Below the pieces are notes generated by a model. It saw only the letters and a list, made by a program, of their open reading frames with translations, was not told the DNA's origin and did no database searches. This document shows positions 6,825 to 39,893 of a stretch of DNA of 41,468 nt, one piece after another (positions within the stretch are counted from its first letter, which is position 1; each line of letters begins with the position of its first letter). Source of the stretch: Haloferax sp. Q22 (GTDB taxonomy: Archaea; Halobacteriota; Halobacteria; Halobacteriales; Haloferacaceae); the NCBI RefSeq assembly GCF_001482285.1, contig NZ_LOEP01000020.1:1-41468 (forward strand), written 5' to 3'. A program made the position numbers and the translations under genes.

Positions 6825-6867
6825 ATTAACCAACGAAAGTAGAAACTGGGGCTGCGTGTTGGTTAAT
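6825..6867. repeat. TTAACCAAC inverted repeat, copy 1
   Basis: ATTAACCAAC 6825-6834 and GTTGGTTAAT 6858-6867, spacer 23 bp. The right arm contains the TAA stop codon of the gene at 6863-7162. Confidence 0.85.
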
Positions 6868-7162
6868 CCCCGAAAAGGCACTGCATCGCTGCCTCGTCAC
6901 CGGTGAGCGTCTGTTGGTCGGCGTCAGTATCCGCGAAGAGCGTCGACTGATCTCCTGTTGAGGACTGCGCTACTTCTGGCCGGTCGTCGACGCCGAACTC
7001 ACTAGCCTCGGGGCGATCGAGCCGCGAGTCTCGGTCGCGATGATCGACGTCTGCACCGAAGTCCTCGAGCGAGGTCTCGACGCTCGTCTCGGCCAGTTCG
7101 AGCTGGCCGTTCTCACCGAACGCAGTCTGTCGCTGAATCTCAATCTCGGGTCGGTCGCTCAT
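6863..7162 (-). CDS. Unknown acidic protein, 99 aa
   Basis: Low-complexity, Asp/Glu/Gln-rich small protein (start MSDRPEIEIQ), probably disordered, with no recognisable domain. It is placed in the same minus-strand series and has its own short leader hairpin at 7173-7199. Its TAA stop codon lies inside the right arm of inverted-repeat copy 1, so the repeat is transcribed with it unless termination occurs there. Confidence 0.6.
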   Translation of the reverse strand: MSDRPEIEIQRQTAFGENGQLELAETSVETSLEDFGADVDHRDRDSRLDRPEASEFGVDDRPEVAQSSTGDQSTLFADTDADQQTLTGDEAAMQCLFGD

Positions 7163-7172
7163 CTAGTTCGAA

Positions 7173-7199
7173 GCCTCCACCCATGGTGGCGTCGACAAA
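7173..7199 (-). promoter_or_regulatory. Leader hairpin upstream of 7162 gene
   Basis: GCCTCCACCCATGGTGGC forms a short stem around CATG and is followed by GTCGACAAAC, the same A-rich tail as the other leaders. Confidence 0.5.
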
Positions 7200-7217
7200 C
7201 AGCCCGCGAGCGTCCAT

Positions 7218-7439
7218 TCAGGTATCTTCTGACCGAAGCTCGCTGGCTCGGTCATCGAGCCGGCGAAGGATCTGGACGCGTTGCTGGTGGGTGTTCTCGT
7301 AGGCGACGCACGCTCGCAGCGTCTCCATGTCGTTGATCGTCGCGATGCCGGCGTTGATAAGTCGCGTATTCGGTGGGTCGAGACGCTGTTCTGGGGACAG
7401 TTCGCTCGAATCTGGATCGTGCTCTTCTGTATCGCTCAC
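7218..7439 (-). CDS. Unknown small protein, 73 aa
   Basis: Starts MSDTEEHDPD. The second half (RLINAGIATINDMETLRACVAYENTH...) reads as a helical segment resembling short haloarchaeal proteins of plasmid-type regions. No family assignment. A clear leader hairpin lies upstream at 7455-7479. Confidence 0.6.
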   Translation of the reverse strand: MSDTEEHDPDSSELSPEQRLDPPNTRLINAGIATINDMETLRACVAYENTHQQRVQILRRLDDRASELRSEDT

Positions 7440-7454
7440 TCCTGGTCGCCTCCA

Positions 7455-7479
7455 CGCCTCCTGAGGCGACGAAAAACAG
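7455..7479 (-). promoter_or_regulatory. Leader hairpin upstream of 7439 gene
   Basis: CGCCTC 7455-7460 pairs with GAGGCG 7463-7468 across a 2-nt loop, then ACGAAAAACAG. It lies between the stop of the 7490-7765 gene and ATG 7439. Confidence 0.6.
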
Positions 7480-7489
7480 CACCCGCCCG

Positions 7490-7765
7490 CTACTCGTCGT
7501 CTCCTGGTTGGATCTGGCGAGCGTCCTCGGCGAGGTCGTGGATGTACTCCCGAAGCGTCTCCATGTCCTCACGGGCGTCTTCGAGCGTTTTCGCCTTCAC
7601 TTTCGCTGTGACCTTATCCTGATCGCGGGTGCCAGTGCCGCGAGTGAGCTTCACGGTGAGGGAGACCCCGACATCGCTTCGCTCGACGTACTCAGTAGGA
7701 GTCTGTTGCGCACTGTTGTCGGTCGATTCTGCGTTCGTACGGGACTGCTGTGTGTGTTCTGGCAT
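7490..7765 (-). CDS. Unknown conserved-type haloarchaeal protein (DUF7389-like), 91 aa
   Basis: Contains YVERSDVGVSLTVKLTRGTG followed by TRDQDKVTAKVKAKTLEDAR and a C-terminal helix. From memory this matches a small haloarchaeal family annotated as DUF7389. The first 30 residues are Ser/Thr/Gln-rich. Only 17 bp separate it from the stop of the upstream gene, with no hairpin between, so it is probably co-transcribed with 7783-8187. Confidence 0.7.
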   Translation of the reverse strand: MPEHTQQSRTNAESTDNSAQQTPTEYVERSDVGVSLTVKLTRGTGTRDQDKVTAKVKAKTLEDAREDMETLREYIHDLAEDARQIQPGDDE

Positions 7766-7782
7766 GGATTGCTCTCTGAACG

Positions 7783-8187
7783 TTAGTTGACGGATGGTGC
7801 GACTGGTTCGTCGACTGTCTCACGAAGGGCTGCATCGATCTCACGCCCGGTGAGTCGCCAGCAGCCGTCTGGTTCTGTACACTCCAGCTGGCTCACGACC
7901 TTGGTCTTGAATTCCATGTACTCCTCGAGGGCGACGTCCTTGTCGTCAGTGTAGTCGAGGAGGAGCGCGAGCGCGAGCTGGGCTGGCCCGCTGCCAGCGT
8001 ATCCCCAGCTGAATCCGCTCGGACTGTGATTCGCCAACTCGAGACTTCGATCGAGTGTGAGCTGTTCCTGGTCAGGCTGTTTCTCGACGATGGTGCGGCC
8101 TCGACGACGGTAGCCGACATAGACGACATCGGCGTTACCCGAGGCCCGTGACTGTTCGAGCGAGTTTGAGTTCGTGAATCCACTCAT
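7783..8187 (-). CDS. DUF6166-like unknown protein, 134 aa
   Basis: The start is ATG 8187 (MSGFTNSNSLEQ). The motif set DVVYVGYRRRGRTIVEKQ, ELANHSPSGFSWGYAGSGPA and QLALALLLDYTDD matches from memory the DUF6166 family, common in haloarchaeal plasmids and proviruses. No known activity. The upstream in-frame ATG at 8226 would place the start inside the leader hairpin and was rejected. It is the first gene of a short operon with 7490-7765. Confidence 0.75.
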   Translation of the reverse strand: MSGFTNSNSLEQSRASGNADVVYVGYRRRGRTIVEKQPDQEQLTLDRSLELANHSPSGFSWGYAGSGPAQLALALLLDYTDDKDVALEEYMEFKTKVVSQLECTEPDGCWRLTGREIDAALRETVDEPVAPSVN

Positions 8188-8214
8188 AGGTCTGTTCGCG
8201 GGTTGCTCGTTCGA

Positions 8215-8245
8215 GCACCCCCGCACCCCTCTGGGGGCGACAAAC
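8215..8245 (-). promoter_or_regulatory. Leader hairpin upstream of 8187 gene
   Basis: Two C-runs (8218-8222 and 8226-8229) can each pair with one G-run at 8233-8237, followed by CGACAAAC. This two-against-one arrangement recurs at 28055-28083. Confidence 0.55.
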
Positions 8246-8311
8246 CTCTCTCTGCGGTCGCTGAATCGTCGAGTGCAGACCTATACCGAACTCAGCACAA
8301 GGAGACCGAGA

Positions 8312-8680: not shown

Positions 8681-8833
8681 TCGTTACTCGCGATAGTGAA
8701 TGTGGACCTATTATTACTATGTTACTAAGTCACCATACCAGAGTAGGTACGTTTCCCTAAGCCAATCAGGAAACAGTACCTCCTCAGTGCGAGCTTCGCT
8801 GACGCTTATTCGGGTTCTGGGACACTGCCAACT

Positions 8834-9241: not shown

Positions 9242-9281
9242 GTCGCGCTCACTCAGTGCGGATTGTTGAGTTCGTCAGGCA

Positions 9282-9302: not shown

Positions 9303-9325
9303 GGTCGCTTACGGTCTCTTCGAGT

Positions 9326-9793: not shown

Positions 9794-9802
9794 GGTGAGC
9801 CG

Positions 9803-16908: not shown

Positions 16909-18159
16909 ATGGACGTGCGTCGAACCGCCGTCGTGAAACTCGACCTTTCCGACGAGCAACGTGACGTACTCCACCGAACCGCCGAGCAATACCTGTACTG
17001 CGCGAACCGAACCGCCGACTACTGTTGGTCCGATACCTCATACACCGAGTGCAAGACCAACAAACGGCAGGTGCGGGACGCGCTCTACGCCGACCTTCGA
17101 GAGGAGACGGACCTACAGGCACAACTCGTCCAAGCCGCCATCAAACGCGCCGTCGAAGCCATCAAAGGCGTTATCGAACGATGGAAGAAGGGACAGCGAG
17201 TCTCTTGCCCCACGTTCACCGCCGAAACGATGGACTACGACGCACGGAGCGCGACATTCTCCCGCAACAAGGTGTCGCTGGCGACTGTTGAGGGGCGGGT
17301 CGAACCGTCGTTCGTTCTTCCGGCAGACAGCCCGACGCCCTACGAGCGGCACGTACTCTCCGAGGATTACGAGTTCCGCGAGAGTACGGTTCGATACGAT
17401 GCGGTGGACGACGAGTTCTACATTCAAATCTCGACTCGGCGGATAGACGGCGACGACGACGAGGTTCCGGCAGATATCGGGCACCCCGACCAAACGGTCC
17501 TCGGTATCGACCTCGGCGTCAACTCGCTCGCCGTCTCCTCGACCGGCACGTTCTGGCAGGGAGACGACTACGACCATTGGTGCCGCGAGTTCGAGAAGCG
17601 ACGCGGTGAGATGCAACAGCGCGGGACGCAAGCCGCGCACAACGCGCTCCTACGGCTCGGAAAGCGCGAAGAAGCGTGGCGGAAACAGTACATCCACAGA
17701 GTCGCCAACGAACTCGTCACGGAAGCCGTCGAACACGACTGCGACGTAATCGTGTTCGAGGAGTTGACCGACATTCGAGAGCGGCTTCCGCAGGCAAAGT
17801 GGCACCACGTTTGGGCGTTTCGACGTCTGTCCGAGTACGTCAAGTACAAGGCCCCCGAGCAGGGTGTCTCTGTGGAGCAGGTTGAGCCGAACCACACGTC
17901 CCAACGCTGTTCTCGGACGGACTGTGGGTTCACGCACGAGGACAACCGTCACGGGGAACACTTCTGTTGCCAGAAGTGCGGGTACGAGGTGAACGCGGAC
18001 TACAACGGCGCGAAGAACATCGGGCTACGGTATGTCCGGAAGCGAACACACAGACTCCGGTCCTCGCCCACGTCGGGGAGCGGAGACGCACCAGTAGACG
18101 TGCGTGTGAATGGTGGGACGTTGAACGGTAAGAGTCACCAGCAGATTGCTGGCGACTGA
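16909..18159 (+). CDS. tnpB: TnpB-type RNA-guided nuclease of a second solo element
   Basis: 416 aa with intact RuvC residues: Asp in GIDLGVNSLAVSS (about 200), Glu in VFEELTDIRERL (about 282) and Asp in NADYNGAKNIG (about 364). Zinc finger: CSRTDCGF...CCQKCGY. The N-terminal VVKLDLSDEQRDVLHRTAEQ and NKRQVRDALYADLR segments are typical of haloarchaeal ISH-type TnpB. No tnpA is present. Both ends are defined by hairpins (16780-16822 and 18182-18231), giving an element of about 1.46 kb. The left end directly follows the leader of the 62-aa gene. It is only distantly related to the TnpB at 2510. Confidence 0.93.
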   Translation: MDVRRTAVVKLDLSDEQRDVLHRTAEQYLYCANRTADYCWSDTSYTECKTNKRQVRDALYADLREETDLQAQLVQAAIKRAVEAIKGVIERWKKGQRVSCPTFTAETMDYDARSATFSRNKVSLATVEGRVEPSFVLPADSPTPYERHVLSEDYEFRESTVRYDAVDDEFYIQISTRRIDGDDDEVPADIGHPDQTVLGIDLGVNSLAVSSTGTFWQGDDYDHWCREFEKRRGEMQQRGTQAAHNALLRLGKREEAWRKQYIHRVANELVTEAVEHDCDVIVFEELTDIRERLPQAKWHHVWAFRRLSEYVKYKAPEQGVSVEQVEPNHTSQRCSRTDCGFTHEDNRHGEHFCCQKCGYEVNADYNGAKNIGLRYVRKRTHRLRSSPTSGSGDAPVDVRVNGGTLNGKSHQQIAGD

Positions 18160-20205: not shown

Positions 20206-20248
20206 ATTAACCAACAATGAACGGCTTTGACACGCCTTGTTGGTTAAT
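20206..20248. repeat. TTAACCAAC inverted repeat, copy 2
   Basis: ATTAACCAAC 20206-20215 and GTTGGTTAAT 20239-20248, spacer 23 bp; the arms extend to 11 bp. It marks the left edge of the CcbP/XPB/Bax1 block. Confidence 0.85.
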
Positions 20249-20837: not shown

Positions 20838-22238
20838 ATGCGACTCGAATTCGACGACGGAACCCTCCTGCTCCATGATGCCTCCGATGACACTCCGTAT
20901 GCGGAGTGGGACGACCGCGTCGACGAGTACCGCGCCCAGGCGTATCGGTATCGACCTCTCCTCGAATGGGCGGGTGCTTGGACAGACGGAAACGAGCAAT
21001 CTACGCTGCAGGACGGCTTCGCCCACGCTCTCGAAGACGCCGCACGGGCGTATCCTGCCCTCGATCTCACGCCAGCGCTCCACATCGAACCGCGCGACTA
21101 CCAGCAGGCCGCCCTCGACGCGTGGGTCGACCACGGCCGCCGGGGGAGTGTCGTGCTCCCCACGGGCAGCGGGAAGACGTTCCTCGGGCTGCAGGCCATC
21201 GCCAACGCCGGCGTCAGTGCGCTGGTCGTAACGCCGACGATTGACCTGATGAACCAGTGGCACGCCACGCTCACCAACGCCTTCGGCGACCAGCTCGCAC
21301 AGCCAATCGGCGTTCTCGGCGGCGGCAGCCACGAGGTCACCGCGATAACGGTCACGACCTACGACAGCGCCTATCGCTACGTCAACGAGTACGGCGACCA
21401 GTTCGGCCTCCTCGTCGTCGACGAGGAACACCACTTGCCAGCTCCGACCTACCAGCAGATCCCCGAGATGATGATCGCGCCGTATCGCCTCGGCCTCACA
21501 GCGACCTACGAGCGACCCGATGGCAAGCACGAACTCCTCGAGGACCTTCTCGGGCCGGTCGTCTATCGGGAGCACGTCGACGAACTCGCCGGCGAGTATC
21601 TCAGCGAGTACGAGACGATTCACATGTCGGTCGACCTCACAGCCGACGAACGCGAGACGTATGACGAGGAGTATCAGATCTATCGTGACTACGTCGACAG
21701 CCACGACTTCGAGCTCTGGAAGGAACGCGGCTACGCAGAGTTCCTCAAGCGCACGTCCTACGACCCGCAGGGACGGCGGGCGCTCATCGCCAAACAACGG
21801 GCCGAGCGACTCGCCCGGACGGCGACGAAGAAACTCGACACGCTCGACACGCTCATCAAACGCCATCACGACGACCGCGCCATCATCTTCACTGCGAACA
21901 ACGACTTCGCCTACGAGATCTCCCAGGAGTTCATCGTCCCCTGCATCACCCATCAGACCAAGACCGACGAACGCACCGAGATCCTGGAACGGTTCCGCAC
22001 GGGCGAGTATTCGATGCTCGCGACCTCCCAAGTTCTCGACGAAGGGATTGACGTCCCGGCGGCGAACGTCGGCATCATCCTCTCGGGAAGCGCCTCGAAA
22101 CGCCAGTACGCTCAGCGGCTCGGACGAATCCTCCGGCCGACGGACGACCGTCTGCCAGCACGTCTGTACGAGATTATTGCTGCGGACACGATGGAGACGT
22201 ACGTCTCCCAACGCCGTCGAGAGGGGGTGAATGCGTAA
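20838..22238 (+). CDS. XPB/Rad25-type SF2 DNA helicase
   Basis: 466 aa. Motifs: I PTGSGKT at 108-114, Ia VTPTIDLMNQW, II VDEEHH at 194-199, III LTAT at 220-223, V/VI DEGIDVPAAN and QYAQRLGRILRP near 430. The N-terminal damage-recognition-like region and the RED-type region are in the usual places for archaeal XPB, which unwinds DNA 3'-5'. The next gene begins within its stop codon (TAATG) and encodes Bax1, the known nuclease partner. The pair forms a helicase-nuclease complex. This accessory copy is probably additional to a chromosomal pair, which is inference. Confidence 0.88.
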   Translation: MRLEFDDGTLLLHDASDDTPYAEWDDRVDEYRAQAYRYRPLLEWAGAWTDGNEQSTLQDGFAHALEDAARAYPALDLTPALHIEPRDYQQAALDAWVDHGRRGSVVLPTGSGKTFLGLQAIANAGVSALVVTPTIDLMNQWHATLTNAFGDQLAQPIGVLGGGSHEVTAITVTTYDSAYRYVNEYGDQFGLLVVDEEHHLPAPTYQQIPEMMIAPYRLGLTATYERPDGKHELLEDLLGPVVYREHVDELAGEYLSEYETIHMSVDLTADERETYDEEYQIYRDYVDSHDFELWKERGYAEFLKRTSYDPQGRRALIAKQRAERLARTATKKLDTLDTLIKRHHDDRAIIFTANNDFAYEISQEFIVPCITHQTKTDERTEILERFRTGEYSMLATSQVLDEGIDVPAANVGIILSGSASKRQYAQRLGRILRPTDDRLPARLYEIIAADTMETYVSQRRREGVNA

Positions 22239-23590
22239 TGCTGACCGCAAACCTCGCGCGGTCACGCACGACCGACGAGACGATTACACCGCTGTTCATC
22301 GATCCATCTGAAGCGCGCTATCGTGAGACGGCACGGGAACTCCTCCAACTGTTCGAAGCCCACCTCAATGAGCCGAAAGGCGACCTCGAAGCCGAGATTG
22401 ACGAGCTGACTGTCGCGAATACCGACTACAAGATCGTCCAAGGATTCGCGAAACTCCTGAAAGACGAGTGTGAGTTCGAGGTCGTTGCTCCGGTTGACCC
22501 GCATACGATCCGCCAGCGGTTGTTCGAGAAAGCCAACGAGCGATACCCGATTGTCCGCCAGCCCACCCTTGGAGAGGACACGCAGAAATTGGAGGTGTAC
22601 AGTGCAGTGGCCGACGAACTGGGGATCTCGCTCGAAGACTGCTATCGTGGGATGTACGCCGATCTCGAGGACAACAAGCGGCTCGTTCGAATCGGCACGC
22701 GGACGGCCGAGCAGTACGCCAGTGATGCGTCGCCGTCGACGACGAATTTGACCGGAAACAGTGCCGAGGAATACGAACACACCGACCTCACCGTAGACTG
22801 GCTGCTGACCCGGTACAATCTCGCGCTGGCTCAGGCAGTCCTCTACGATGCGACTGAGATGCGGATTCGCGTCTGGGATCACTTCGGGACGGTGTTCAGC
22901 TACATGAAGCTGTTCGGCCTGATGCACCGCATCTATCCGATCGACGGCGACGGCGAGCGCGTTCCGAGTACGGACCAGGCCACAGGGTATGAGGCCGTGC
23001 TGGATGGACCAGCGTCACTCTTCTCGAAATCACAGAAGTACGGGATTCGCATGGCAAACTTCCTGCCGGCGTTACCTCTCTGTGACCGGTGGGAGCTGAC
23101 TGCCGAGATCCTCACTGATGAGACGATAGACGAGACGCGGCAGTTCAGACTTGACCACACCGAGACCCTTGATTCGCATTACAGTGCTGGCGATCAGTTC
23201 GATAGCGATGTTGAGCGGACGCTCGCCCAGAAATGGGCGCGAGCGAATACCGAGTGGGAGCTCGTACGTGAGGACGATGTCTTCGACCTCGGGGCCGAGG
23301 TGATGATCCCCGACTTCGCAGTCGAACACCCCGATGGTCGGCGGGCGATCCTCGAGATCGTTGGCTTCTGGACGCCCGAGTATTTAGAGTCAAAGCTAGC
23401 GAAGATCCGGCAGGTGGAGGCTGACAACTTCATACTGGCTGTCTCAGAGCGACTGGATTGTGCAAATGAGGACTTCGGACGGACGGCCGACCGAGTACTC
23501 TGGTTCAAAACCGGCATTCACGTCTATGATATGGTCGAATTGGTTGAAACAGTTGCTGCCTCGTCCGATACAACACCTGCTTCTAAGTGA
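22238..23590 (+). CDS. Bax1-type nuclease (DUF790), XPB partner
   Basis: 450 aa, Bax1/DUF790 family. The DNA-cleaving PD-(D/E)xK-like motif is visible as MIPDFAVEHPDGRRAILEIV followed by GFWTPEYLESKLAKI. Upstream there is LTVDWLLTRYNLALAQAVLY, typical of the family. Known Bax1 cuts DNA bubbles opened by XPB on the 3' side. The start codon overlaps the helicase stop by one base, so expression is coupled. It ends 140 bp before inverted-repeat copy 3. Confidence 0.88.
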   Translation: MLTANLARSRTTDETITPLFIDPSEARYRETARELLQLFEAHLNEPKGDLEAEIDELTVANTDYKIVQGFAKLLKDECEFEVVAPVDPHTIRQRLFEKANERYPIVRQPTLGEDTQKLEVYSAVADELGISLEDCYRGMYADLEDNKRLVRIGTRTAEQYASDASPSTTNLTGNSAEEYEHTDLTVDWLLTRYNLALAQAVLYDATEMRIRVWDHFGTVFSYMKLFGLMHRIYPIDGDGERVPSTDQATGYEAVLDGPASLFSKSQKYGIRMANFLPALPLCDRWELTAEILTDETIDETRQFRLDHTETLDSHYSAGDQFDSDVERTLAQKWARANTEWELVREDDVFDLGAEVMIPDFAVEHPDGRRAILEIVGFWTPEYLESKLAKIRQVEADNFILAVSERLDCANEDFGRTADRVLWFKTGIHVYDMVELVETVAASSDTTPASK

Positions 23591-23730: not shown

Positions 23731-23771
23731 CTTAACCAACGACGCGGGGAAAGACACCAGCGTTGGTTAAG
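23731..23771. repeat. TTAACCAAC inverted repeat, copy 3
   Basis: CTTAACCAAC 23731-23740 and GTTGGTTAAG 23762-23771, spacer 21 bp. The outer base pair is C-G here but A-T in copies 1, 2 and 4, so both arms changed together. It lies between two convergent gene ends. Confidence 0.85.
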
Positions 23772-23802: not shown

Positions 23803-24795
23803 TTATGACCGCGACCCGACCTCGGTGCCGGGTTTGAACTCGGTCAACTCCTCGATGCGCTGTTCGAGTTCGTCGACTTCCTGGCGGAGTTCCTCGGCGT
23901 CGGGATCGTCGCTCAGCGCGAGCTGGTCCTTCAGCCCTTGCAGCCGTGTTTCCTTGCGCTCTACGTCGACGTCGGCCTTGCGCACATACTCGCTTTCTTC
24001 GATCTCGTAGACCTCAGTCTCTGGGAGATCGGTCACGTCCAGGGCTTCGTCGACTTTCTTGCGATCGACGGCCATGATGCGCTCGCGAGGAATCCCCGCC
24101 GTTTCGAGCACGCCGATGACCTCGTCGTCGTCTTTCAGCGAGCGATTGCGGCGGCTTGTCCGCTGGACCGACCCGTATTGGCCGTGGACCGGCTGGTCGT
24201 GGTGGAGTCGCCCAAGGAGCACCTCACGCACGTCCTGTCGGAGGTCGCCGGCGTTTCGCTGGACGTCCGAGAGTAGCGTATAGAGGTTGATGAGCGCCGG
24301 CGTCTCACCGTCCTCGAGCGCCGTTGGGTCGTGGCGTTCGAGCGCGTCGATCAAGAGGAGCATGTCGGCATAGATGGGAAGATCGGGTTCCGTGCGGTCT
24401 GCCGCATCGTCTTGGTCATCAGGTGACTGACCGGATGCCCCGGTGATGAGCTGGGAGGTCGTCGGCTCGTCGGTTTCGGTGAGCGTGCCTGCTCGGTTGT
24501 TGATCTCGTAGCGGGGATGGAGACTGAGCACGGCCGCGTACGGCTCCGCGTCCGGGGGCAGGCGTTGGAGATCGAAGGTGCCGCCAGCGTCGGTAATGCG
24601 CTCGGCCAGGGTTTCGAACTGCTCGCGGTGGAGCGGCTGTGCGTTACCTGAATCGCCGAACTCGATGACGATGCGGTACTCCTGAATGTCGGTGAGGTGG
24701 AACCGCGTTTCCGACAGTGGCGTGATGAGTGTCGCATCCGCAGCGAGTGCGTCACACTCGTCAAGGAGCGTCCGCCAGCTTGCGGTAAAGGGCAT
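23803..24795 (-). CDS. Unknown protein with C-terminal coiled coil, 330 aa
   Basis: Start MPFTASWRTLLDECDALA. N-terminal alpha/beta domain (about 1-115) with HLTDIQEYRIVIEFGDSGNA and YAAVLSLHPRYEINNRAG; an acidic low-complexity linker (about 118-140); a helical domain with YADMLLLIDALERHDPTALE; then VIGVLETAGIPRERIMAVDR; and a coiled coil with heptads in the last 60 residues (LKDQLALSDDPDAEELRQEV). No catalytic motif. The composition and coiled coil suggest a structural or nucleic-acid adaptor role, but that is not supported further. Confidence 0.75.
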   Translation of the reverse strand: MPFTASWRTLLDECDALAADATLITPLSETRFHLTDIQEYRIVIEFGDSGNAQPLHREQFETLAERITDAGGTFDLQRLPPDAEPYAAVLSLHPRYEINNRAGTLTETDEPTTSQLITGASGQSPDDQDDAADRTEPDLPIYADMLLLIDALERHDPTALEDGETPALINLYTLLSDVQRNAGDLRQDVREVLLGRLHHDQPVHGQYGSVQRTSRRNRSLKDDDEVIGVLETAGIPRERIMAVDRKKVDEALDVTDLPETEVYEIEESEYVRKADVDVERKETRLQGLKDQLALSDDPDAEELRQEVDELEQRIEELTEFKPGTEVGSRS

Positions 24796-24924
24796 AGTAG
24801 CTCTTGGTCGTATCGCGGGAAAACTGCTCGGCCCTGTTCGTGCTCGACACCGGTCTTCTGGAACGCTTTGACTCGCTGCTGGCAGTTACCCAACAACAGC
24901 CCAATGCGCAGGTGGCGTTGGTTA

Positions 24925-25815
24925 CTAATCTGCTTTCGGATCCGGCCCGTATCGGGGTGTTCCGCACCACTGACACTCCCACATGGACTGTTCGGCCCAC
25001 TCGTCGTCAGGGACGGCTTCGAATTTCAGGAATCGATGCGCAGTCTCCTCACCGCAGTCCCGACACACGAGCTGTTTCCTGTTCGAACTCTCGCGTCGTG
25101 GGCTCTCGCTACTGATTTCTTCGACGGATTGTTGGACCGCAATCGCTGGCACGAGCCAGACACCGTCGTCTGCGTCCGTGAGGAGGGTCGCAAGGCGAGT
25201 CTCATCACGAATCCCACTCCCGGTTTCGTCGTAGAGGAACGTCGCGTGCTCACCGTCGTGAGGCGACTGCGTCGTGTCTGTCCATGTCGTCCGCTCCCGC
25301 GCCGCCGCGAGCACCTGTGCGCCGCTCTCTGATGTTACCTGTACCGCTGGGGGGAGCGAGGGCCACTGATCGGTTAGCTGTGCGGCGGGCTCTGCATTGA
25401 GGTCGTAGAGCAGCTGGCAGTCGTCAACTACTGGATCTCTGTCAGCCTTCGGGAGGAGCGTGGCTGCAGCAGCACCCTTCGCGACGGCGGCGTAGAACGT
25501 CGACGCCTCGACGAGCAGATGGACGACGTGGAGTAGTGTCCATTCAGTATCCGGGGCGCGACTATCGTCGCTAGCTCCATCGAGATGGTTTGAGAGGCAG
25601 AACCGACACTTGGTACGGTTCGCAGGAATCGACGAACTGCACGAGGAACATTCGCTCCGTGTCGATTTCGTTCGATCTGGATACGAATCCGGCCCCTCTC
25701 TTCGCTGTCCCTCTGATCGCCCAGCGTTCCCTCGTCCAGAAAGCTCGTCGTCGGGAACGCGAGTCGCTTCACCAAGTGGTCGTAGTTCCTCAAAATCAGA
25801 GTAGTGGTTCGTCAT
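24925..25815 (-). CDS. Unknown protein with two zinc ribbons, 296 aa
   Basis: N-terminal ribbon CSSCSSSIPANRTKCRFC (about residues 56-73), a helical middle with WTLLHVVHLLVEASTFYAAV, and a C-terminal ribbon CRDCGEETAHRFLKFE...CQWCGTPRYGP. Both ribbons are typical of a set of haloarchaeal proteins in mobile regions (memory). The middle part has HATFLYDETGSGIRDE and GVWLVPAIAV, which resemble the C-terminus of the protein at 13216-13665 (YDQHATGIRHRGQL, then LWIVPADV), so the two may share a domain. Function unknown. Confidence 0.75.
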   Translation of the reverse strand: MTNHYSDFEELRPLGEATRVPDDELSGRGNAGRSEGQRREGPDSYPDRTKSTRSECSSCSSSIPANRTKCRFCLSNHLDGASDDSRAPDTEWTLLHVVHLLVEASTFYAAVAKGAAAATLLPKADRDPVVDDCQLLYDLNAEPAAQLTDQWPSLPPAVQVTSESGAQVLAAARERTTWTDTTQSPHDGEHATFLYDETGSGIRDETRLATLLTDADDGVWLVPAIAVQQSVEEISSESPRRESSNRKQLVCRDCGEETAHRFLKFEAVPDDEWAEQSMWECQWCGTPRYGPDPKAD

Positions 25816-31878: not shown

Positions 31879-31921
31879 ATTAACCAACATTATTCCATAT
31901 TAGCTATTTGTGTTGGTTAAT
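31879..31921. repeat. TTAACCAAC inverted repeat, copy 4
   Basis: ATTAACCAAC 31879-31888 and GTTGGTTAAT 31912-31921, spacer 23 bp, 62 bp beyond the mcrC-like stop. The inner flanks extend the arms to 11 bp. Confidence 0.85.
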
Positions 31922-31982: not shown

Positions 31983-33368
31983 TTACAGTACTTGACCGAC
32001 CGAGTCAGAGTACTGGATAATCTTGATCTCATCCGGTGACTGTGCCTCCTGACCCAAATCGTCTGTAAACAGGAGTCCACGCACCGAGACAGAGTCAAGC
32101 ACGTCTTCCGGAGCTTCGACGTATGCCCCCGTCTGAGAGCGCTTGACGAACGCCATATACTCCAGTAATTCACGCAGTCCTGTCGCAACGTAGCCGATAT
32201 TTTGTGTGTACTTCACCTCGCCGACGAACACATGTGCAAGTTCGAACTCACCCGTCTCGTCCCGATCATAGCGTTCGAGCAGGATATCTGGGCGACCACC
32301 CCAGAGTGCATCGCTCCCGCTGTAATCGAGAAGGTCTTGCGAGAGCGACTTCCACCGCGTAAGTACTTGGTTCAGCCGGAAGAGATACCCATCCGGCTCC
32401 GCCGCATCTGGATCTAACGACTCTCGAAACGTAAGGGACTCACCAGTCGCGTCATGCGAGATCACAAACCGCGACCCGTCTTGTTCCCACGTCGCGACAG
32501 TCGAGGGATCGTTACGCCAGTGCGTCAGTACTCTGTACTCGACGGCATCATATGCGTCGAGGATACGGAAGATCCAGTAGAGTTCAAAGAGGGTCTCCGT
32601 TTCCTCCGGTGCGATGACCGTATGAGACAAGATGTCGTGAGCCTCGTCACTGTCGAGTTCTTGGTTCATCAGGCGGCGATAGCGATCCAAGAGGATGGCG
32701 GCATCACGGTAGAACGCCGACCGGGACCGCTTCACCGATTCGATTGTCCGGTCGGTCACGTCCTTATCGGCTTCTTCGATACGCTGGAGGTAGATATTCC
32801 GTTCATAGATTCGGTTGAGCTTGGCCGCTGCGGACTCCGGACTCCGGATCGCGGCATCAGTTGGTTTGACCCACTCTGACAGCCACTCGTAGCCATCTGG
32901 ATTCTCGACAGCCGGTTGCAAGTCGGTATGGACGATCTCGTGGACGATTCGCAGTAGTCGCTTCAGGACGAGGTTCTCGTCGACGTCGTAGCGTTCTTCG
33001 GACTGCCGGCAGACGAAAAGTGGTTCGTCGAAGCGGCCAGCTCGTGCCCGTCGCTTTGTCGTTCCCGGCCAGTCGATCCGGCCACGAATCTCACCTCGCT
33101 GTTCAACCGAGGTCGCTGAGACGGTCGTTTTCATCTGTCGGATACGGTCCTCTAACGTCCGCATGAAGTCGAGTACACCGACGGCCTCGTCGGTGTCACC
33201 AGTGTCCGTGAGGACGAAGTGAATCCGTAGCAGTGTCTCAATATCATCGACGTCGAGGTCCGGGTGGGCAGTGTCGATGACGCGGTCGAATCGAACGCCT
33301 TTCCTAAGGTACGTGTGGAAGTCATTAGCAATGTCCGCGAGGAGCGCCTGACTCGATGTTTTCGGCAT
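31983..33368 (-). CDS. McrC-like PD-(D/E)xK nuclease subunit
   Basis: 461 aa from ATG 33368, which lies 1 bp after the mcrB-like stop (TAGGATG). The catalytic core is near the C-terminus: ALWGGRPDILLERYD then HVFVGEVKYTQNIGYV, giving the PD...ExK signature. N-terminal helical region with LRIHFVLTDTGDTDEAVGVL and FRILDAYDAVEYRVLTHW. McrC proteins are recruited by the McrB GTPase ring and cut DNA. Operon order McrB then McrC is canonical. The longer frame to 33818 overlaps McrB and was rejected. It ends 62 bp before inverted-repeat copy 4. Confidence 0.82.
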   Translation of the reverse strand: MPKTSSQALLADIANDFHTYLRKGVRFDRVIDTAHPDLDVDDIETLLRIHFVLTDTGDTDEAVGVLDFMRTLEDRIRQMKTTVSATSVEQRGEIRGRIDWPGTTKRRARAGRFDEPLFVCRQSEERYDVDENLVLKRLLRIVHEIVHTDLQPAVENPDGYEWLSEWVKPTDAAIRSPESAAAKLNRIYERNIYLQRIEEADKDVTDRTIESVKRSRSAFYRDAAILLDRYRRLMNQELDSDEAHDILSHTVIAPEETETLFELYWIFRILDAYDAVEYRVLTHWRNDPSTVATWEQDGSRFVISHDATGESLTFRESLDPDAAEPDGYLFRLNQVLTRWKSLSQDLLDYSGSDALWGGRPDILLERYDRDETGEFELAHVFVGEVKYTQNIGYVATGLRELLEYMAFVKRSQTGAYVEAPEDVLDSVSVRGLLFTDDLGQEAQSPDEIKIIQYSDSVGQVL

Positions 33369-33369: not shown

Positions 33370-36300
33370 CTACTCACTCCCTGACTCCAGGTCGACCTGG
33401 AAGAAATCGCTGGCAGTCGGCCAGAGTTCGTTCTGGTCATCGGCCACGATCGCGTCGAGCTCGTCGAGGACATCTTCGAGTTCGCCCCGTCGCAGCCCTT
33501 CCAACTGGGGGAACACGTACATGATGATGGGTGAGACGTAATCCGCATCCTCGACTGTCGGCGTCGAAGCGACGTACGTATAGATATCCTCGATGATGGC
33601 CGGTCCGATCGCACGTTGTTTGTTGACGGCATACCAGAGCCGACCGACCGGCTCAAAGTGTTGCTCAGCTTCGGGCACGTCCCCACCAGCCGACCAGACA
33701 GCGACGTATTCCCCGACGAGCTGTGCAAGCTTCGACTCACCGTCGGCAGTTTCCTCCTCGGGTGTTGGGAGGGTGGGAATCCCAATAGGGATAAATGCCC
33801 AGCGTCGCATGAATGCATAGCTCATCTCATACAGCGACGTCTTATCGAGCGTGTTCATCGTTGCGAGCATTCGCCAATCGTCCGGGATGTAGAATCGACT
33901 CGGACGGACGGTCGTGTCTGTCCTCGAAGAGTCAAGGATCTCAATCGGGTCGCCATTGGAGCCGTCGAATGGAAGGGTGACACTCTCGCCAGTGAGCGCG
34001 GAGAATAGCGAGCCGAACGCCTTGTCGATGTCCGCGCGATTGAGTTCGTCGATGATCAGCCACTCGTTTGCAGGTGTCCCATCAGTATCGGCCTGGAAGC
34101 GATCGAGCACGACACCGGGCTGGAATTCGAGCGTGTTCTCAGCGGTCGTCTGATAACCACCGACGGTGTCGAACGTCGACCAGTCAGCGGACGCAGTCAC
34201 TATCTCGTAGTCACTCTCGCCGACGGTCGCCTCACACACCTGCCGTGCTAGCTTCGTCTTCCCTGTCCCCGGTGGACCGAAGAACAGGACGTGATTCCCG
34301 CTCTCAAGAGCGCGCTGAACGCGCGACTCGATGGTATCCCACTCCTGCTCGGGGAAGTACAGTGGCCCCGAGTCGACAGTAACGCCCTCTGAGAGCGCCG
34401 CTATATCGTCGGTGTGATCGTCGAACGTGACCTGTGTCCCGAGTTCGAGGATTCGATCGTACTCCGCTTCGGTGAGTTCCGTGATTATCGAATTGTTTTT
34501 ACTCTGGATAATCTCGCTTTTTGCCAGTTGACGGTCGTCAACGACTTGCTCCCATGTTGCCCCATCGAGGGCCGAGTCCCATTCGATCGTAATGCCTTCG
34601 ATCTCTCTGCCGTGCTCTTCTGAGTACTCTTCGTGGAGGCCTTCGGAGACGTGGGCTTGTGCGACGATCGCCCTGGTCGGCGCCACCTGATAGAGGAGCA
34701 CCTTGTCACCCGGTCGGGCGAGCTTGTACGCCTCGAGATTTAGCCGTGGAGATCCGGAGGGACCAATCGTCGCATAGAATGCAGTGGCACCATCTTCATG
34801 GCGGAACATTTCCTCGTTCACCCAGAAGTATCGGGTCGACGAATCCGGTCGGTCGATGGGTGCCAACTCCTCAAGTGCTAAGATAGTCTCGTACTCGTGC
34901 GGAGAGAGTTCGAACAGGCTCCCTTGGGCCCGATTTCGGATCGGAGAGGCTTCTTCGAGGTCAGGAAGGTCGGTGAGCTGCTCCCATGTAATCGGTTCCA
35001 CTCGCCGATCGTACTGAATCGTGATTCCATCGATTGCCCCGCCATACTCCTCTTTCGTCTCTTCGTGCAATCCCTCGACGATCGTGCCTTCGGCAACGAT
35101 GGCCTTCACAGGATTCGACTCGTAGAAGACGACCCGGTCGCCCGGCGATACGGATTCGAATGCGCCGACGATACGCCGCTTGTTCCCGTTCGAGTTGGTG
35201 GCAGTGTAAAATATCTCACCACCGTGTGCGATACTGTCGACTGACCAGATATCGGGGTTCGCCGTAATCCAGTAGTAGTCCGGACCAGTCATGCCCCCAA
35301 GGAGATGCTCAGCTGCAGCGTCGGTCAAACGACTTAGATAGGTCTGCGTGACCTTGCCGTTGCTGTCGAGGGGGTAGTATTTCTCGCCGCGGACGTCGTC
35401 ACGCATCAAGTAGTCGCGTACCTCGTCGATCGACTGCGGTTCGTCGAACTGTTCGAAGTCAACGTCGACACGATAGCGGCTCTCTCCGTTTTGTTCGATT
35501 TCAGATACTTCTGAGGTGACGGTTGAATATCCGATGATCTCCGGGCGGTGATAGTGAATCATCGTGTCACCGACATCGAGTACGGTGAGGTCGTGGTGCC
35601 AGACATCGTCGACAGACGCCTCGAGATATTCGTTCTCAATCTCGTCACGGTTCGTCTGCGTCACCCAGTAGACCGACGACTCTCCATCTGTTGGTCGCTG
35701 TTTTATGTCGAGAATTCTCTCATACAGTTCAATTGCTGCATCAGACGGTTCGTCTTCGATACTCTGATCATCGACTTTATCGATGATATTGAACAGCTGG
35801 TCAACTTCAAATCGAATCGGGACGGTAACACCGTGGTCTGCGTCCCTCGTCGCGTAGCCGACGATCCGTTCGTACGTTGCGAGGAATTCGGTGAAATACT
35901 GCTCCCCTTCGGCGTACGAACGGGGATCCTCATAGCCGAAGAACGTAAGCCCGTTCGTCGATGCAGCGTTCAGTATTGGGTGGTCGTCAATGTGGAGAGA
36001 GCCGAAGAGTTCTCGGACGGTCGTCCTTCCGCCTAGAGAATCCTCCCATTTATCGTTGTACTGGTCGGCATTGCGTATCTCCTCGATAAGACTCGCGAGA
36101 TCATCGATAGATCCACTCCACTTATTCAGAATCTGGGTCGCTTGCCCTCCCTGGATGGCGGAATGCATCTGATTCCACATCGCTTTGAAACGCTCAGGCG
36201 TGGGGTTTGCAATGAACTTGTCTGCGCGTTTGGGGATCACATCCGTCCGGTTGTGTCCTTCTAGGTCAAATTCAGCACCTGATGGTATCGTTTGCACGAC

Positions 36301-36807
36301 ATCTCGCCACTGCTCAAGAATCGCTCGTTGCTCAGCAGTCAGTGACGGACCCAGAATCTCGTTCTGAACGATGGCAGTGTACACCCGGTCAAGATCGTCG
36401 TCGTCCGGGCCATCTGCTGAACTCACTGTGCGGGGCGGTGCGTAACTCGTGGGATAGTCTAAAGCGCGATTGACCGTCCCTCTATCATAGCCTTCGGTCG
36501 GATTGTACCATCGCTCCCAGTCAACCGAGACGTGATACTCCGTGCTTTCATCGCTGGGGACGACCTTCCGGTCGGGATCTGTGATCGCTGACTCGTCCCA
36601 TGGTTCGGTGACCGTCCCTGCAGCAATGTACTGTCCGGAGGGCTGATCGTACAAGAGAATGTGGTCACCAGCGTCAAGCGAACGGAGTTGTTCACCGTAT
36701 TCTTCAGGCCCATATGTGGCCACGACACCGAGCTCATTGAACAATCGAGAGAAGTCGACATCCGGCTCGTTCTGCCGATTCGAGTGGACCAAATATGTAT
36801 CAGGCAT
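33370..36807 (-). CDS. McrB-like GTPase with four EVE-like domains
   Basis: 1145 aa. C-terminal AAA+ GTPase of McrB type (about 830-1145): FGPPGTGKTKLARQV near 841, WLIIDELNRADIDKAFG and ATMNTLDKTSLYEMSYAFM, the McrB hallmark. The N-terminal 800 residues contain four segments of EVE/YTH-like pattern (aromatic-rich start, then GDxxxxYxxxxxxxxAxGxV): about 1-130 (DAGDHILLYDQPSGQYIAAG), 378-500 (VYWVTQTNRDEIENEYLEAS), 510-655 (YYWITANPDIWSVDSIAHGG, AIVAEGTIVEGL) and 658-790 (YFWVNEEMFRHEDGATAFYA, AIVAQAHVSEGL). EVE domains bind modified bases. EVE-McrB fusions are known; four copies in one chain is unusual. The gene is divergent from the 37003 regulator. Confidence 0.85.
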   Translation of the reverse strand: MPDTYLVHSNRQNEPDVDFSRLFNELGVVATYGPEEYGEQLRSLDAGDHILLYDQPSGQYIAAGTVTEPWDESAITDPDRKVVPSDESTEYHVSVDWERWYNPTEGYDRGTVNRALDYPTSYAPPRTVSSADGPDDDDLDRVYTAIVQNEILGPSLTAEQRAILEQWRDVVQTIPSGAEFDLEGHNRTDVIPKRADKFIANPTPERFKAMWNQMHSAIQGGQATQILNKWSGSIDDLASLIEEIRNADQYNDKWEDSLGGRTTVRELFGSLHIDDHPILNAASTNGLTFFGYEDPRSYAEGEQYFTEFLATYERIVGYATRDADHGVTVPIRFEVDQLFNIIDKVDDQSIEDEPSDAAIELYERILDIKQRPTDGESSVYWVTQTNRDEIENEYLEASVDDVWHHDLTVLDVGDTMIHYHRPEIIGYSTVTSEVSEIEQNGESRYRVDVDFEQFDEPQSIDEVRDYLMRDDVRGEKYYPLDSNGKVTQTYLSRLTDAAAEHLLGGMTGPDYYWITANPDIWSVDSIAHGGEIFYTATNSNGNKRRIVGAFESVSPGDRVVFYESNPVKAIVAEGTIVEGLHEETKEEYGGAIDGITIQYDRRVEPITWEQLTDLPDLEEASPIRNRAQGSLFELSPHEYETILALEELAPIDRPDSSTRYFWVNEEMFRHEDGATAFYATIGPSGSPRLNLEAYKLARPGDKVLLYQVAPTRAIVAQAHVSEGLHEEYSEEHGREIEGITIEWDSALDGATWEQVVDDRQLAKSEIIQSKNNSIITELTEAEYDRILELGTQVTFDDHTDDIAALSEGVTVDSGPLYFPEQEWDTIESRVQRALESGNHVLFFGPPGTGKTKLARQVCEATVGESDYEIVTASADWSTFDTVGGYQTTAENTLEFQPGVVLDRFQADTDGTPANEWLIIDELNRADIDKAFGSLFSALTGESVTLPFDGSNGDPIEILDSSRTDTTVRPSRFYIPDDWRMLATMNTLDKTSLYEMSYAFMRRWAFIPIGIPTLPTPEEETADGESKLAQLVGEYVAVWSAGGDVPEAEQHFEPVGRLWYAVNKQRAIGPAIIEDIYTYVASTPTVEDADYVSPIIMYVFPQLEGLRRGELEDVLDELDAIVADDQNELWPTASDFFQVDLESGSE

Positions 36808-36979: not shown

Positions 36980-37002
36980 TTGGTTCGCTAGTATGCAACA
37001 GT

Positions 37003-37926: not shown

Positions 37927-38004
37927 GGGCGAGGTTTGATCGCTCATACGGGGATGTTGAGCGGTCACAAATCTCGTAAGACGCGTCTTCTTCTGTTCTA
38001 TCCC

Positions 38005-38514
38005 TCAGCTACGATTCGAAACCAGGTCTTCGATGAACCGGAACCCGTTCACGAACGTCACCGAGTCCCCGTAACCCTCGCTCGCGAGCACAGTTTCGGC
38101 CCCCTCGCCTGCCGCGATATCCGTCGTGTAGATGTAGACCTCAGTCACCACCCCTGCACTTAGCTGCTGGGCAGCCAGGGCCGCGAGTGCGGCGTCCGCT
38201 CGCTCGACGTCGTCGGCGGGCCGGTCGTCGGCGTTCGCGATGTACCGCTGGACTCCGTCCATGGCTCGCGAGACGATCGGCTCGGAGAACTCGAGCGGCG
38301 CTGCAACCGTCGCCCACCCCTCGTCGATTGCGTCGTCGACAGGCGGGGCTTCGATGTCGGGGTCGTCGACGGTCAGCTCCTCGTACACCCGTTCGGGGAG
38401 GACGAAGGTGACGTCGTTTCGGCGGGCGAATCGCCGAACAGCCCGGTAGCGACTGTTCGAGGGCTGGCCCATCGCGACGAACAGGCCGGTGTCGGCGATG
38501 TGGAGCCGGCTCAC
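38005..38514 (-). CDS. PIN-domain toxin-like RNase, 169 aa
   Basis: VapC-like PIN fold. Acidic residues in the right order: Asp in LHIADTGLFVAMG (about 8), Glu in LPERVYEEL (about 41-45), Asp/Glu in DDVERADAALAAL (about 102-107) and Asp in VYIYTTDIAAGEG (about 131). The start is GTG 38514, overlapping the HTH gene's TGA (GTGA), so the two are coupled. PIN toxins cut RNA. The partner HTH protein is longer than classical VapB antitoxins. Confidence 0.8.
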   Translation of the reverse strand: MSRLHIADTGLFVAMGQPSNSRYRAVRRFARRNDVTFVLPERVYEELTVDDPDIEAPPVDDAIDEGWATVAAPLEFSEPIVSRAMDGVQRYIANADDRPADDVERADAALAALAAQQLSAGVVTEVYIYTTDIAAGEGAETVLASEGYGDSVTFVNGFRFIEDLVSNRS

Positions 38515-39104
38515 GTGTCGTCAGTGCCGTCGTCGATGTCCAACTCACCGAGCCCTGCGCCAGCCTCCTCGATATCGTAGTGCTCGTGGACGACGGGCCG
38601 GAGTGCTTGCAGAATCATCTCCGCGGCCAGCGGGGATATGTCGAGGTCCTCCGCCATCAGTCGGTGGGTCACCTCGCCGCGTTCGCGGGCGACCGCATAG
38701 GTGAGCGCTGTCGCGAGTTCGGCGACGCCGTGACGGTCGATGTAGGTGTCGATATCTGCGTTCGTCTCCCGGCGGCCGACCGCGTCGATGAGCGCCGGCG
38801 TGATCGTGTACTCGTGGTCGCCGGCAGTCGTCGTCACGGTCAGGTCGATTGCGCGGGCGGCGTACTGCCGGGGCTGCTCGTCCTGTGTAACTTCGACGAC
38901 GCCGGTATCGACGAGCCGGTTCACGTAGCTGTAGGCCGTTCCCTGGGCGAGGTTGAGGTCCTCCATCACATCCTGGACGGTCGCCTCCCCCTCCTGGGCG
39001 AGATACGCGTACAGCTGAGCTAGCTGTGGCTCCTCCAGCAAGTCCGCGACCGAGAGGAAGTCACGGACGATGTCGCCGTCGGCGCGATTTGAGGTGCGTG
39101 ACAT
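38511..39104 (-). CDS. Winged-helix protein (DUF7437/TrmB-like), 197 aa; antitoxin candidate
   Basis: N-terminal HTH: LEEPQLAQLYAYLAQEGEAT, VQDVMEDLNLAQGTAYSYVN and RLVDTGVVEVTQDEQPRQYA (about 22-83). A C-terminal helical domain with VAELATALTYAVARERGEVT and PVVHEHYDIEEAGAG follows. From memory this matches haloarchaeal proteins annotated DUF7437. The stop codon overlaps the start of the PIN gene. It may repress its own operon and neutralise the PIN protein. Confidence 0.75.
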   Translation of the reverse strand: MSRTSNRADGDIVRDFLSVADLLEEPQLAQLYAYLAQEGEATVQDVMEDLNLAQGTAYSYVNRLVDTGVVEVTQDEQPRQYAARAIDLTVTTTAGDHEYTITPALIDAVGRRETNADIDTYIDRHGVAELATALTYAVARERGEVTHRLMAEDLDISPLAAEMILQALRPVVHEHYDIEEAGAGLGELDIDDGTDDT

Positions 39105-39154
39105 GGGCCGTTCTTGATTACAGTTTACAGCGAATCAGTAAAGAGTGTTTTGGG

Positions 39155-39493
39155 TCACTCTGCCGGCGGTGTGACGAGGTGTCCCTCGAGGTCACGCGTC
39201 CAGTACGTTGCGGGCCCATGGGGACTACATCTCGCACACAGCTGTAGTGGACCTTCCAGGTGGCCGAGCTCGACACGGAACCGGGTGAGGGCTGCAAGCG
39301 CATCGACGACGAGCCCGCACCCGTCGCAGGCGTAATGGTCACGCTCGTCGGGATCGAGACTCGACTGGATCGCGCAGTCGACGCAGATCGGGTGTGTGAC
39401 TCGTTCGTCTTTTCCCCAGGTATGTGCCTTCCCCACGTCTGTACCGGGAACCGCATCGCAGAAGGCACAGCCAGCAAGTGTCTGTTGCATCAC
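39155..39493 (-). CDS. Zinc-ribbon protein (DUF7558-like), 112 aa
   Basis: Four CxxC pairs: CAFC, CVDC, CDGC and CARC, giving two zinc sites. Start MMQQTLAGCAFCD (39493, or second Met 39490). It overlaps the end of 39490-39780 by 4 bp, so the two are coupled. Similar proteins are annotated DUF7558 in haloarchaea (memory). Function unknown. Confidence 0.75.
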   Translation of the reverse strand: MMQQTLAGCAFCDAVPGTDVGKAHTWGKDERVTHPICVDCAIQSSLDPDERDHYACDGCGLVVDALAALTRFRVELGHLEGPLQLCARCSPHGPATYWTRDLEGHLVTPPAE

Positions 39494-39780
39494 TTTCCTC
39501 CCTCGTCGGTGTCGCGAGCGGCGGTCCAGCCTCGATGGAAGACTGCGAGTTGGAGTATCGAGTCGAATGCCTCGTCGCTTGGCTCGTGGACGAGGACCCG
39601 TTCGTCGGGGATGGGGGTGACGACGTCGTCGTCGACGAGGTCATTGACCAGAGAATGGGCTCTCCTCTCGTCAATATCCGCTACTGAGACGCGGGCGGCA
39701 TCTTGATCCTGTGCAACGAGTTCCGCTTCAAACCGTTCGTGGTCGGCTGATGCATCGTCGAGTGCGTCTGTACCGGGCAT
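39490..39780 (-). CDS. Unknown acidic protein, 96 aa
   Basis: Start MPGTDALDDASADHERFE (39780); GTG 39789 is an alternative. Contains LVAQDQDAARVSVADIDERR and a VNDLVDDDVVTPIPDERVLV stretch. It is coupled to the following zinc-ribbon gene by overlap. A strong leader hairpin and inverted-repeat copy 5 lie upstream. Confidence 0.7.
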   Translation of the reverse strand: MPGTDALDDASADHERFEAELVAQDQDAARVSVADIDERRAHSLVNDLVDDDVVTPIPDERVLVHEPSDEAFDSILQLAVFHRGWTAARDTDEGGK

Positions 39781-39804
39781 GGGAATCACGTCGGCGCGTA
39801 TTGA

Positions 39805-39835
39805 CGCGCCTCGGCCTCTCAGGCGCGGACAAACT
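39805..39835 (-). promoter_or_regulatory. Leader hairpin upstream of 39780 gene
   Basis: CGCGCCT 39805-39811 pairs with AGGCGCG 39821-39827, then GACAAACTAC. Confidence 0.6.
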
Positions 39836-39850
39836 ACTCGCTGCCATATC

Positions 39851-39893
39851 GTTAACCAACACTGCGGAAGACTGCGGTTCTGTGTTGGTTAAA
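39851..39893. repeat. TTAACCAAC inverted repeat, copy 5
   Basis: GTTAACCAAC 39851-39860 and GTTGGTTAAA 39884-39893, core arms TTAACCAAC/GTTGGTTAA, spacer 23 bp. It begins 11 bp after the stop of the 39904-40326 gene. Confidence 0.85.

Follow-up and report, generated by a model that had tools for sequence, protein, structure and literature searches.

Dispersed inverted repeats of haloarchaeal plasmids and viruses as candidate binding sites of a small uncharacterised protein

The contig NZ_LOEP01000020.1 of Haloferax sp. Q22 (assembly GCF_001482285.1), whose whole 41,468 nucleotides are referred to below as the window, carries five dispersed copies of a bipartite inverted repeat, TTAACCAAC-N21/23-GTTGGTTAA. 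This repeat is nearly invariant, co-occurs with genes for a small protein that we term F1, is present in the promoter of the F1 gene itself, changes class together with the protein and is biased towards gene ends. From these sequence comparisons we consider that the repeats are best explained as dispersed, autoregulated binding sites of F1, a plasmid and virus protein, and give this explanation as a whole a probability of roughly 0.6.

A pattern search of the window returned exact matches at positions 6826-6866, 20207-20247, 23732-23770, 31880-31920 and 39852-39892. The first-pass annotation, made from the letters of the window alone, had reported these five repeats with one additional flanking base per side, spacers of 23 bp in four copies and 21 bp in one, and nearly invariant arms. 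The repeats are real and the spacers are 23, 23, 21, 23 and 23 bp in order, while the 9-bp arms are in fact identical in all five copies. No match was found in 100 dinucleotide-shuffled versions of the window, and in 391 haloarchaeal genomes the reversed pattern gave one match at one place (in G122). Together these controls rule out a chance origin, and the pattern is thus not, as that annotation had allowed, as common in random DNA.

Exact sites are present in 272 of the 391 haloarchaeal genomes, with up to 33 per genome, and at the genus level in 10 of 15 genomes. A scan of one genome per species (84,980 species) gave at least 120 stretches with sites, 113 of them archaeal by title among the matches listed, where several named plasmids also appear. 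Seven matches carry bacterial titles (L042, L056, L073, L075, L082, L085 and L122) and were dropped from the context and co-variation counts given below; their spacers are N26 (four matches), N19, N23 (L056) and, twice within 80 bp, N22 (L122). The five with N26 or N19 look like chance matches, and L122, a metagenome-assembled genome titled Candidatus Tritonobacter, has two N22 sites (5870 and 5948) of the haloarchaeal form, which may reflect either mis-binning or a network of wider range. A viral collection contributed 74 stretches, of which 14 have N27 with an extra C/G inside the arms and represent a different sequence type. This look-alike, TTAACCAACC-N25-GGTTGGTTAA (equivalent to N27 by the original arms), occurs in L154, L163, L166, L185 and ten more viral contigs, is located inside a long open reading frame (ORF) in 10 loci, and is apparently unrelated to the haloarchaeal network. 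The first-pass annotation had asked whether the repeats cluster on mobile elements, and they are indeed carried by named plasmids, by the ChaoS9 phage and other viral contigs, and by a whole annotated plasmid (NZ_CP098416). In five genomes of three to four contigs the listed sites all lie outside contig C1, except for two in G102, and at least one named chromosome (L142) has a site too.

The sequence of the site is close to all-or-none. With spacers of 21-26 bp allowed, nine replicon contigs (969,270 bases) contain 65 exact copies, three with one mismatch, one with two and one with three, although six sites of G340:C3 are counted twice in the nine-replicon counts; these six are repeated at a constant offset of about 107.9 kb, which indicates a large repeat (a duplicated plasmid or an assembly effect). 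Spacer lengths have modes at 23 and 24 bp and are mostly confined to 22-25 bp, and an A follows each arm in 84-91% of cases. Changes of the bases flanking the arms of the third window copy, C with G on both sides, had been taken as proof that symmetry is selected, but co-variation of the flanks lends this little weight: the first flanking base is complementary in 71 of 191 sites (59.7 expected, p ~0.04) once near-identical spacers have been removed, one of four other flanking positions tested has p under 0.05, and the flanks of the fifth window copy are not complementary.

F1 was exposed by clustering the ORFs of 226 site loci and of the window into families. It is an uncharacterised protein of about 107 amino acids with helices, an acidic linker and a three-stranded sheet. 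Among the 31 loci of this family the site is at the 5' end of the gene in 22, is called inside the ORF in seven and is at the 3' end in one; as read from the sequences, the starts of the seven were drawn too far upstream. A profile built from 15 F1 proteins was searched in the same 391 genomes, and matches with E below 1e-28 were regarded as strong, a cut-off set after the scores were known. Exact sites are present in 214 of the 215 genomes with strong F1, compared with 37 of 97 genomes with a weaker match only and 21 of 79 without a match, so that 118 of the 176 genomes lacking strong F1 are without sites (raw counts that ignore kinship, F1 being the single family put to this test). The one strong-F1 genome without an exact site (G123) has one relaxed-pattern site, next to a second copy of F1 interrupted by a stop codon.

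The position of the site relative to F1 is also constant. When the best F1 gene was taken from each of 30 genomes, an exact site was located 13-14 bp before the ATG in all 30, with N23 in 29 and N22 in one. In the five genomes of three to four contigs, the site is 13-16 bp upstream in 15 of 15 strong F1 genes within the listed contigs, and L242, one of three strong F1 genes on G102:C3 outside the listed part of that check, has its site as well; 13-17 bp separates the site from most F1 genes. F1 is matched in 189 plasmid records, and in 158 of them the match covers 80% or more of the protein. Searches of F1 against Pfam and NCBIfam gave no family above cut-off; phrog_22659, of unknown function, matches the ChaoS9 F1 protein at 1.1e-5.

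The case for F1 itself as the reader of the sites rests most strongly on the joint change of protein and repeat. We inspected weaker F1 homologues of 32 chosen genomes at 30 loci. Six of these loci (L327-L329 and L331-L333) have a second class of repeat, AGTTACCCCAC..GTGGGGTAACT, ending at the ATG; L312 and L313 have CTAACCAAC..GTTGGTTAG 3-4 bp before the ATG, and L310 has a variant TAACCAAG repeat. The class-2 pattern TTACCCCAC-N15-30-GTGGGGTAA occurs in eight of 20 chosen genomes (1-12 copies each), six of the eight being known beforehand as class-2 carriers, and in none of the other 12, and the control gave no match. The 12 class-2 repeats of G144 share a single contig. G166 has two weak homologues, about 20 bases away from two of its class-2 sites. 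G323 was not among the carriers known in advance; here the start of a class-2 protein, which shares 79% identity with the L332 protein, directly follows a class-2 site. A relaxed class-1 pattern gave six copies in G067, nine in G181 and eight in G274, with G067 and G181 lacking the canonical site, and none in G166 and G126.

Haloviruses present the same relationship. In ChaoS9 the F1 protein is gp49 (ChaoS9_240), with a canonical site directly upstream; of the further sites in this virus, one overlaps the end of orc1 and one overlaps the end of gp80, two genes past repH. phiCh1 has four sites of the form TTATCAAAC-N26-GTTTGATAA, one of them before its F1 homologue, and phiH1 has two exact sites of this form together with an imperfect one; the latter lies where T8, a constitutive transcript, begins, and precedes both PhiH1_245 and PhiH1_250, of which PhiH1_250 is the F1 homologue. 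The spacer is 26 bp in all six exact phiCh1 and phiH1 sites. The half-sites of the three dialects can be aligned (TTAACCAACA, TTACCCCACA and TTATCAAACA). Two diverged F1 homologues (L335 and L336, in G148 and G076) have a shorter-spaced CCCACA..TGTGGG repeat near the ATG, which is possibly a further dialect.

On this comparative evidence it is very probable that F1 binds the sites, and the proposal in the first-pass annotation of a dimeric protein-binding site is the one that fits best, with F1 as the candidate protein. A site in a promoter by itself shows control of F1 rather than binding by F1, and some other protein of the element could bind the sites, F1 being merely its most conserved target gene. 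Candidates for such a protein would be the 308-aa MarR-annotated gene that is divergent to F1 in many plasmids or the DUF7342 winged-helix genes that often follow sites. However, in both plasmids and viruses a change of F1 class is accompanied by a change of repeat class, and in ChaoS9 the 308-aa gene is missing from the annotation next to F1; we regard this alternative as improbable.

Several observations nevertheless weigh against the explanation favoured here. The 30 F1 genes with invariably placed sites were picked by protein score and are therefore the least diverged, and kinship between genomes is uncorrected in the co-occurrence. Strong F1 is lacking in 58 of the 272 site-bearing genomes (37 have a weak homologue and 21 have none); one of the 58, G110, has a split F1 gene. 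Contig C3 of G155 has two sites and no F1, the F1 gene being on C2. Three weak F1 homologues of the five-genome check are without a listed canonical site beside them, and seven weak homologues, all from genomes of family f4 (L317, L320, L322, L324-L326 and L337) have no convincing repeat. The AlphaFold model of F1 is middling (predicted local distance difference test score 75.7, predicted template modelling score 0.42), and no significant fold match was obtained, the best Foldseek E values being 0.44 against the PDB and 0.25 against viral models, with a best Z of 3.9 in a second look. Finally, the fixed distances between sites and downstream starts described below also fit plain promoter control.

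Placement relative to genes was assessed using ad hoc gene calls (based on codon-position GC and acidity) with uncertain starts and sure stops; distances are coordinate differences unless stated otherwise. On the nine replicons, where about 14.5% of the DNA is intergenic, 66 of 68 sites with no more than one mismatch are intergenic or overlap a gene edge, the remaining two being at a contig edge and inside an ORF call. In a wider set of 272 sites, 17 are inside an ORF call and 22 are at edges; removal of these and of repeated gene pairs left 152 distinct intergenic gene-pair contexts. A stop codon is present within 25 bp of the site in 56 of the 152, compared with an expectation of 23.1 (standard deviation 4.3), and none of 2000 random intergenic simulations gave as high a count. 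Start codons within 25 bp are not enriched (22 versus 23.9 expected), divergent gaps are depleted (22 versus 33.9, p 0.0035), and convergent gaps number 41 versus 33.3 (p 0.064). Among 90 oriented cases lying within 60 bp of a stop, an arm of the site overlaps the stop codon in 18. The proximity to stop codons and the depletion of divergent gaps argue that the sites are not ordinary promoter operators, in agreement with the earlier view that they are not simple promoters.

Distances from site to gene are near-constant across genera on both gene sides. A 73-aa gene (19 members) has a site 10 bp past it in 11 of 11 adjacent cases with five different neighbours, and the site lies 22 and 20 bp after the stop of ORF88 in phiCh1 and of PhiH1_440 in phiH1, respectively. 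Upstream of genes, the site is 64-82 bp from 12 of 14 members of the DUF6610 family, which have seven different upstream partners, 148-150 bp from the first gene of the VirB4 block, which encodes 92 aa (12 adjacent cases among 13 members), and 50-53 bp from members of a further family, fam2, in eight of nine adjacent cases. On NZ_CP098416, sites are found after xseB, at both ends of the VirB4 block, at the ArdC stop, past the gene following TFB and before F1, as well as at other places. Several site-bearing gaps also contain a T-run followed by a GC-rich inverted repeat near the ATG (G020:C2 at about 61230, 63304 and 75501; G131:C7 at about 99319), possibly a second control element in the mRNA leader.

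These upstream distances, together with the site in the F1 promoter and the presence of sites both before and after the VirB4 block of NZ_CP098416, are what would be expected of a classical operator network, in which F1, a repressor or activator acting across the plasmid, would bind each site and control no more than the promoter downstream of it. We consider this unlikely, since start codons are not enriched, divergent gaps are depleted and sites between convergent gene ends are at least as frequent as chance predicts; moreover, phiCh1 and phiH1 both have a site between repH and its convergent neighbour. The bias towards gene ends might also suggest an RNA element, with the repeat forming a hairpin in mRNA 3' ends, and a T5 run follows 13 of the 90 near-stop sites (0.144) compared with 0.073 of 1293 other stops. 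Such a role is very unlikely, as the spacer is narrowly confined and dialect-specific (26 bp in phiCh1 and phiH1), the letters are invariant rather than compensatory (at the first inner position 145 sites are complementary versus 144.0 expected) and a copy is present in the F1 promoter. The same promoter copy, which is the most constant of all, makes a purely 3'-end role incomplete; of the 3'-end element put forward in the first-pass annotation, the gene-end bias stands on statistical grounds and the exclusive role does not. Site-specific recombination or transposon ends, to which short inverted arms on mobile elements might point, are least likely of all: spacers are unrelated between positions and similar between orthologous positions, and from genus to genus the sites keep nearly the same position at orthologous gene ends. 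The recombination site suggested earlier is consequently not supported, and the comparison of orthologous gene ends also removes the earlier doubt as to whether the motif is conserved in homologous elements.

The AlphaFold model of F1 comprises helices at residues 14-21 and 25-57, a low-confidence linker and a sheet at 73-100. The alignment of the family places 18 of 28 invariant columns at 71-103, and on the model the conserved C-terminal sheet may be the part that reads DNA. Model confidence was no higher with a deeper alignment of 37 rows. A P4-like integrase arm domain, at Foldseek rank 31 with E 2.9, is not evidence of relationship, and the best match in a PDB sequence search with F1 (E 0.042) was not useful.

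We infer binding, dimerisation, the roles of the domains, autorepression, operon limits and a boundary function as follows. F1 would dimerise through its N-terminal helices, and the three-stranded sheet at the C-terminus of each subunit, tethered by the flexible acidic linker, would read one half-site (TTAACCAACA). The two half-sites would be presented on the same DNA face about three helical turns apart, with the linker tolerating spacers of 21-26 bp; a helix-held dimer with one sheet per half-site is proposed because it would account for the symmetry, the separation of about three turns and this tolerance. The site in the F1 promoter leads us to predict autorepression: F1 bound 13-14 bp before its own ATG would repress its own gene and keep the F1 level constant. 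At other sites, often just past stops between operons, F1 may mark or block the boundaries between transcription units of the plasmid backbone (transfer, anti-restriction, replication and regulatory genes) and thereby coordinate them plasmid-wide. We favour boundary setting and coordination as the main function over promoter control alone and over partition, although we place this at slightly less than even odds. A little more tentative still is the fuller suggestion that F1 represents an undescribed family of small archaeal plasmid and virus proteins, with two short reading heads on flexible tethers, that marks operon ends replicon-wide through a two-part site as a transcription-boundary system (insulator or protein-dependent termination), common to coexisting plasmids and with parallel dialects in plasmids and head-tailed haloviruses.

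A role in plasmid architecture has also to be weighed, whereby F1 would be a partition or DNA-bridging protein that gathers the sites, acting as a centromere, for segregation or compaction. The sites are spread over whole replicons, F1 is located near Orc1/Cdc6 genes and sometimes near ParA genes, a site precedes parA in phiCh1, and five of 24 ParA-type family members have a site 18-181 bp upstream. On NZ_CP098416, however, F1 is encoded away from parA, which overlaps a different small gene, and there is no site near parA. Within single genomes, several contigs each carry F1 and share the same site (C2 and C3 of G041, C2 and C4 of G297, C3 and C4 of G333, and C1, C2 and C3 of G102); if these are separate plasmids, incompatibility would be expected of a partition system, and the sharing speaks against it. 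Proximity to stop codons is likewise not needed for partition. We therefore regard such a role as unlikely, and the partition or origin site listed in the first-pass annotation is not favoured.

A boundary role for F1, if true, would mean that archaeal plasmids carry a dedicated replicon-wide system separating transcription units; we know of no such system described in the Archaea. The present analysis attaches a testable function to an anonymous protein of 189 plasmid records and of the long-studied haloviruses phiH1 and phiCh1. In addition, the three protein-site dialects offer a means to work out the DNA-reading code, and the sites could serve to mark mobile DNA in haloarchaeal assemblies.

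Within the window, the earlier statement that every copy lies at a gene end is true of copies 1, 3, 4 and 5. Copy 1 (6826-6866, N23) overlaps the stop codon of the ORF 6863-7162 (-), its TAA being that stop, and is 67 bp upstream of a DUF6610 gene at 5749-6759 (-) (Pfam PF20314, E 5.8e-75). Copy 3 (23732-23770), with the shortest spacer of the five (N21), is located between convergent genes, 142 bp past the stop of 22238-23590 (+) and 33 bp past that of 23803-24795 (-). Copy 4 (31880-31920, N23) is 63 bp past the stop of a (-) gene ending at 31983. Copy 5 (39852-39892, N23) follows the stop of the (-) gene 39904-40488 by 12 bp and precedes the next called (-) gene by 72 bp; family clustering assigns 39904-40488 to a conserved family that has a site at its 3' end in nine of 11 loci. 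The statement is doubtful for copy 2 (20207-20247, N23), which is upstream of a gene pair (20838-23590) annotated in plasmid relatives as a DEAD/DEAH helicase and DUF790: the nearest called stop is 146 bp away, with the site 3' of it, and the neighbouring ORF calls are uncertain. A decayed sixth copy, TTACCCAAC-N22-GTTGGTTAC (24886-24925), which the first-pass annotation did not list, has two mismatches and abuts the stop codon of 24925-25815 (-), which family comparison places in another family with 3' sites; in the remaining 12 of the 13 family members the site at this end of the gene is exact.

The host genome consists of 56 contigs, the window being C13, and its 14 exact sites are found only on C7 (six), C13 (five) and C24 (three). 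No F1 gene is encoded by the window contig; a copy is present on C24. C7 also contains copies, 83-84% identical, of window positions 20838-23588 and 23822-24896 with sites adjoining. No tRNA genes were found in the window. The product of the (-) gene at 33370-36807 (1145 aa) combines an EVE domain with an ATPase domain of the AAA_5 type, which makes this a candidate defence gene, and the ORFs 2510-3787 (-) and 16909-18159 (+) belong to one family. The part of a related plasmid that matches the window bears a TnpB-family annotation, and in several plasmids the stretches that match 20000-41468 are annotated with a plasmid-borne peptide chain release factor aRF-1 and with TFB.

String and topic searches of the open-access PubMed Central (PMC) literature found no description of the repeats or of F1 function. 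The F1 homologues PhiH1_250, ChaoS9_240 and Nmag_4297 are listed as uncharacterized protein in the consulted parts of PMC6210493 and PMC6471424, which make no mention of an F1-type site. Repeats near the orc genes of haloarchaeal replicons recall the origin recognition boxes (ORB), which in the consulted part of PMC3528665 were sought in the regions flanking haloarchaeal orc genes and carry a G-string. Orc1/Cdc6 origin recognition boxes are ruled out for the present repeats, whose invariant arms have no G-string and which are dispersed over replicons. A further comparison is KorB, which has a larger set of sites on IncP plasmids. On the IncU plasmid RA3, KorB is a ParB-family protein encoded in an operon with ParA and has several operators; like F1 it is plasmid-encoded with several operators on the plasmid, and it controls stability functions and conjugation (consulted part of PMC7414963). 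F1, in contrast, belongs to no Pfam or NCBIfam family above cut-off and is outside the parA operon of NZ_CP098416, and its sites are long, bipartite, biased towards stop codons and common to a whole archaeal class. With E values up to 0.1 allowed, neither Pfam nor NCBIfam nor PHROGs gave a ParB-type match for F1, and by these family searches F1 does not appear to be a ParB relative. F1 does resemble dispersed-operator regulators in that one site lies at its own promoter and others are scattered over the element that encodes it. The stoperators of mycobacteriophage L5 are likewise scattered through short gaps between genes, close to gene ends; they are bound by the phage's own repressor and thought to stop transcription. 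They are, however, single asymmetric sites with immunity-type specificity, whereas those of F1 are symmetric, with about 32 bp between half-sites.

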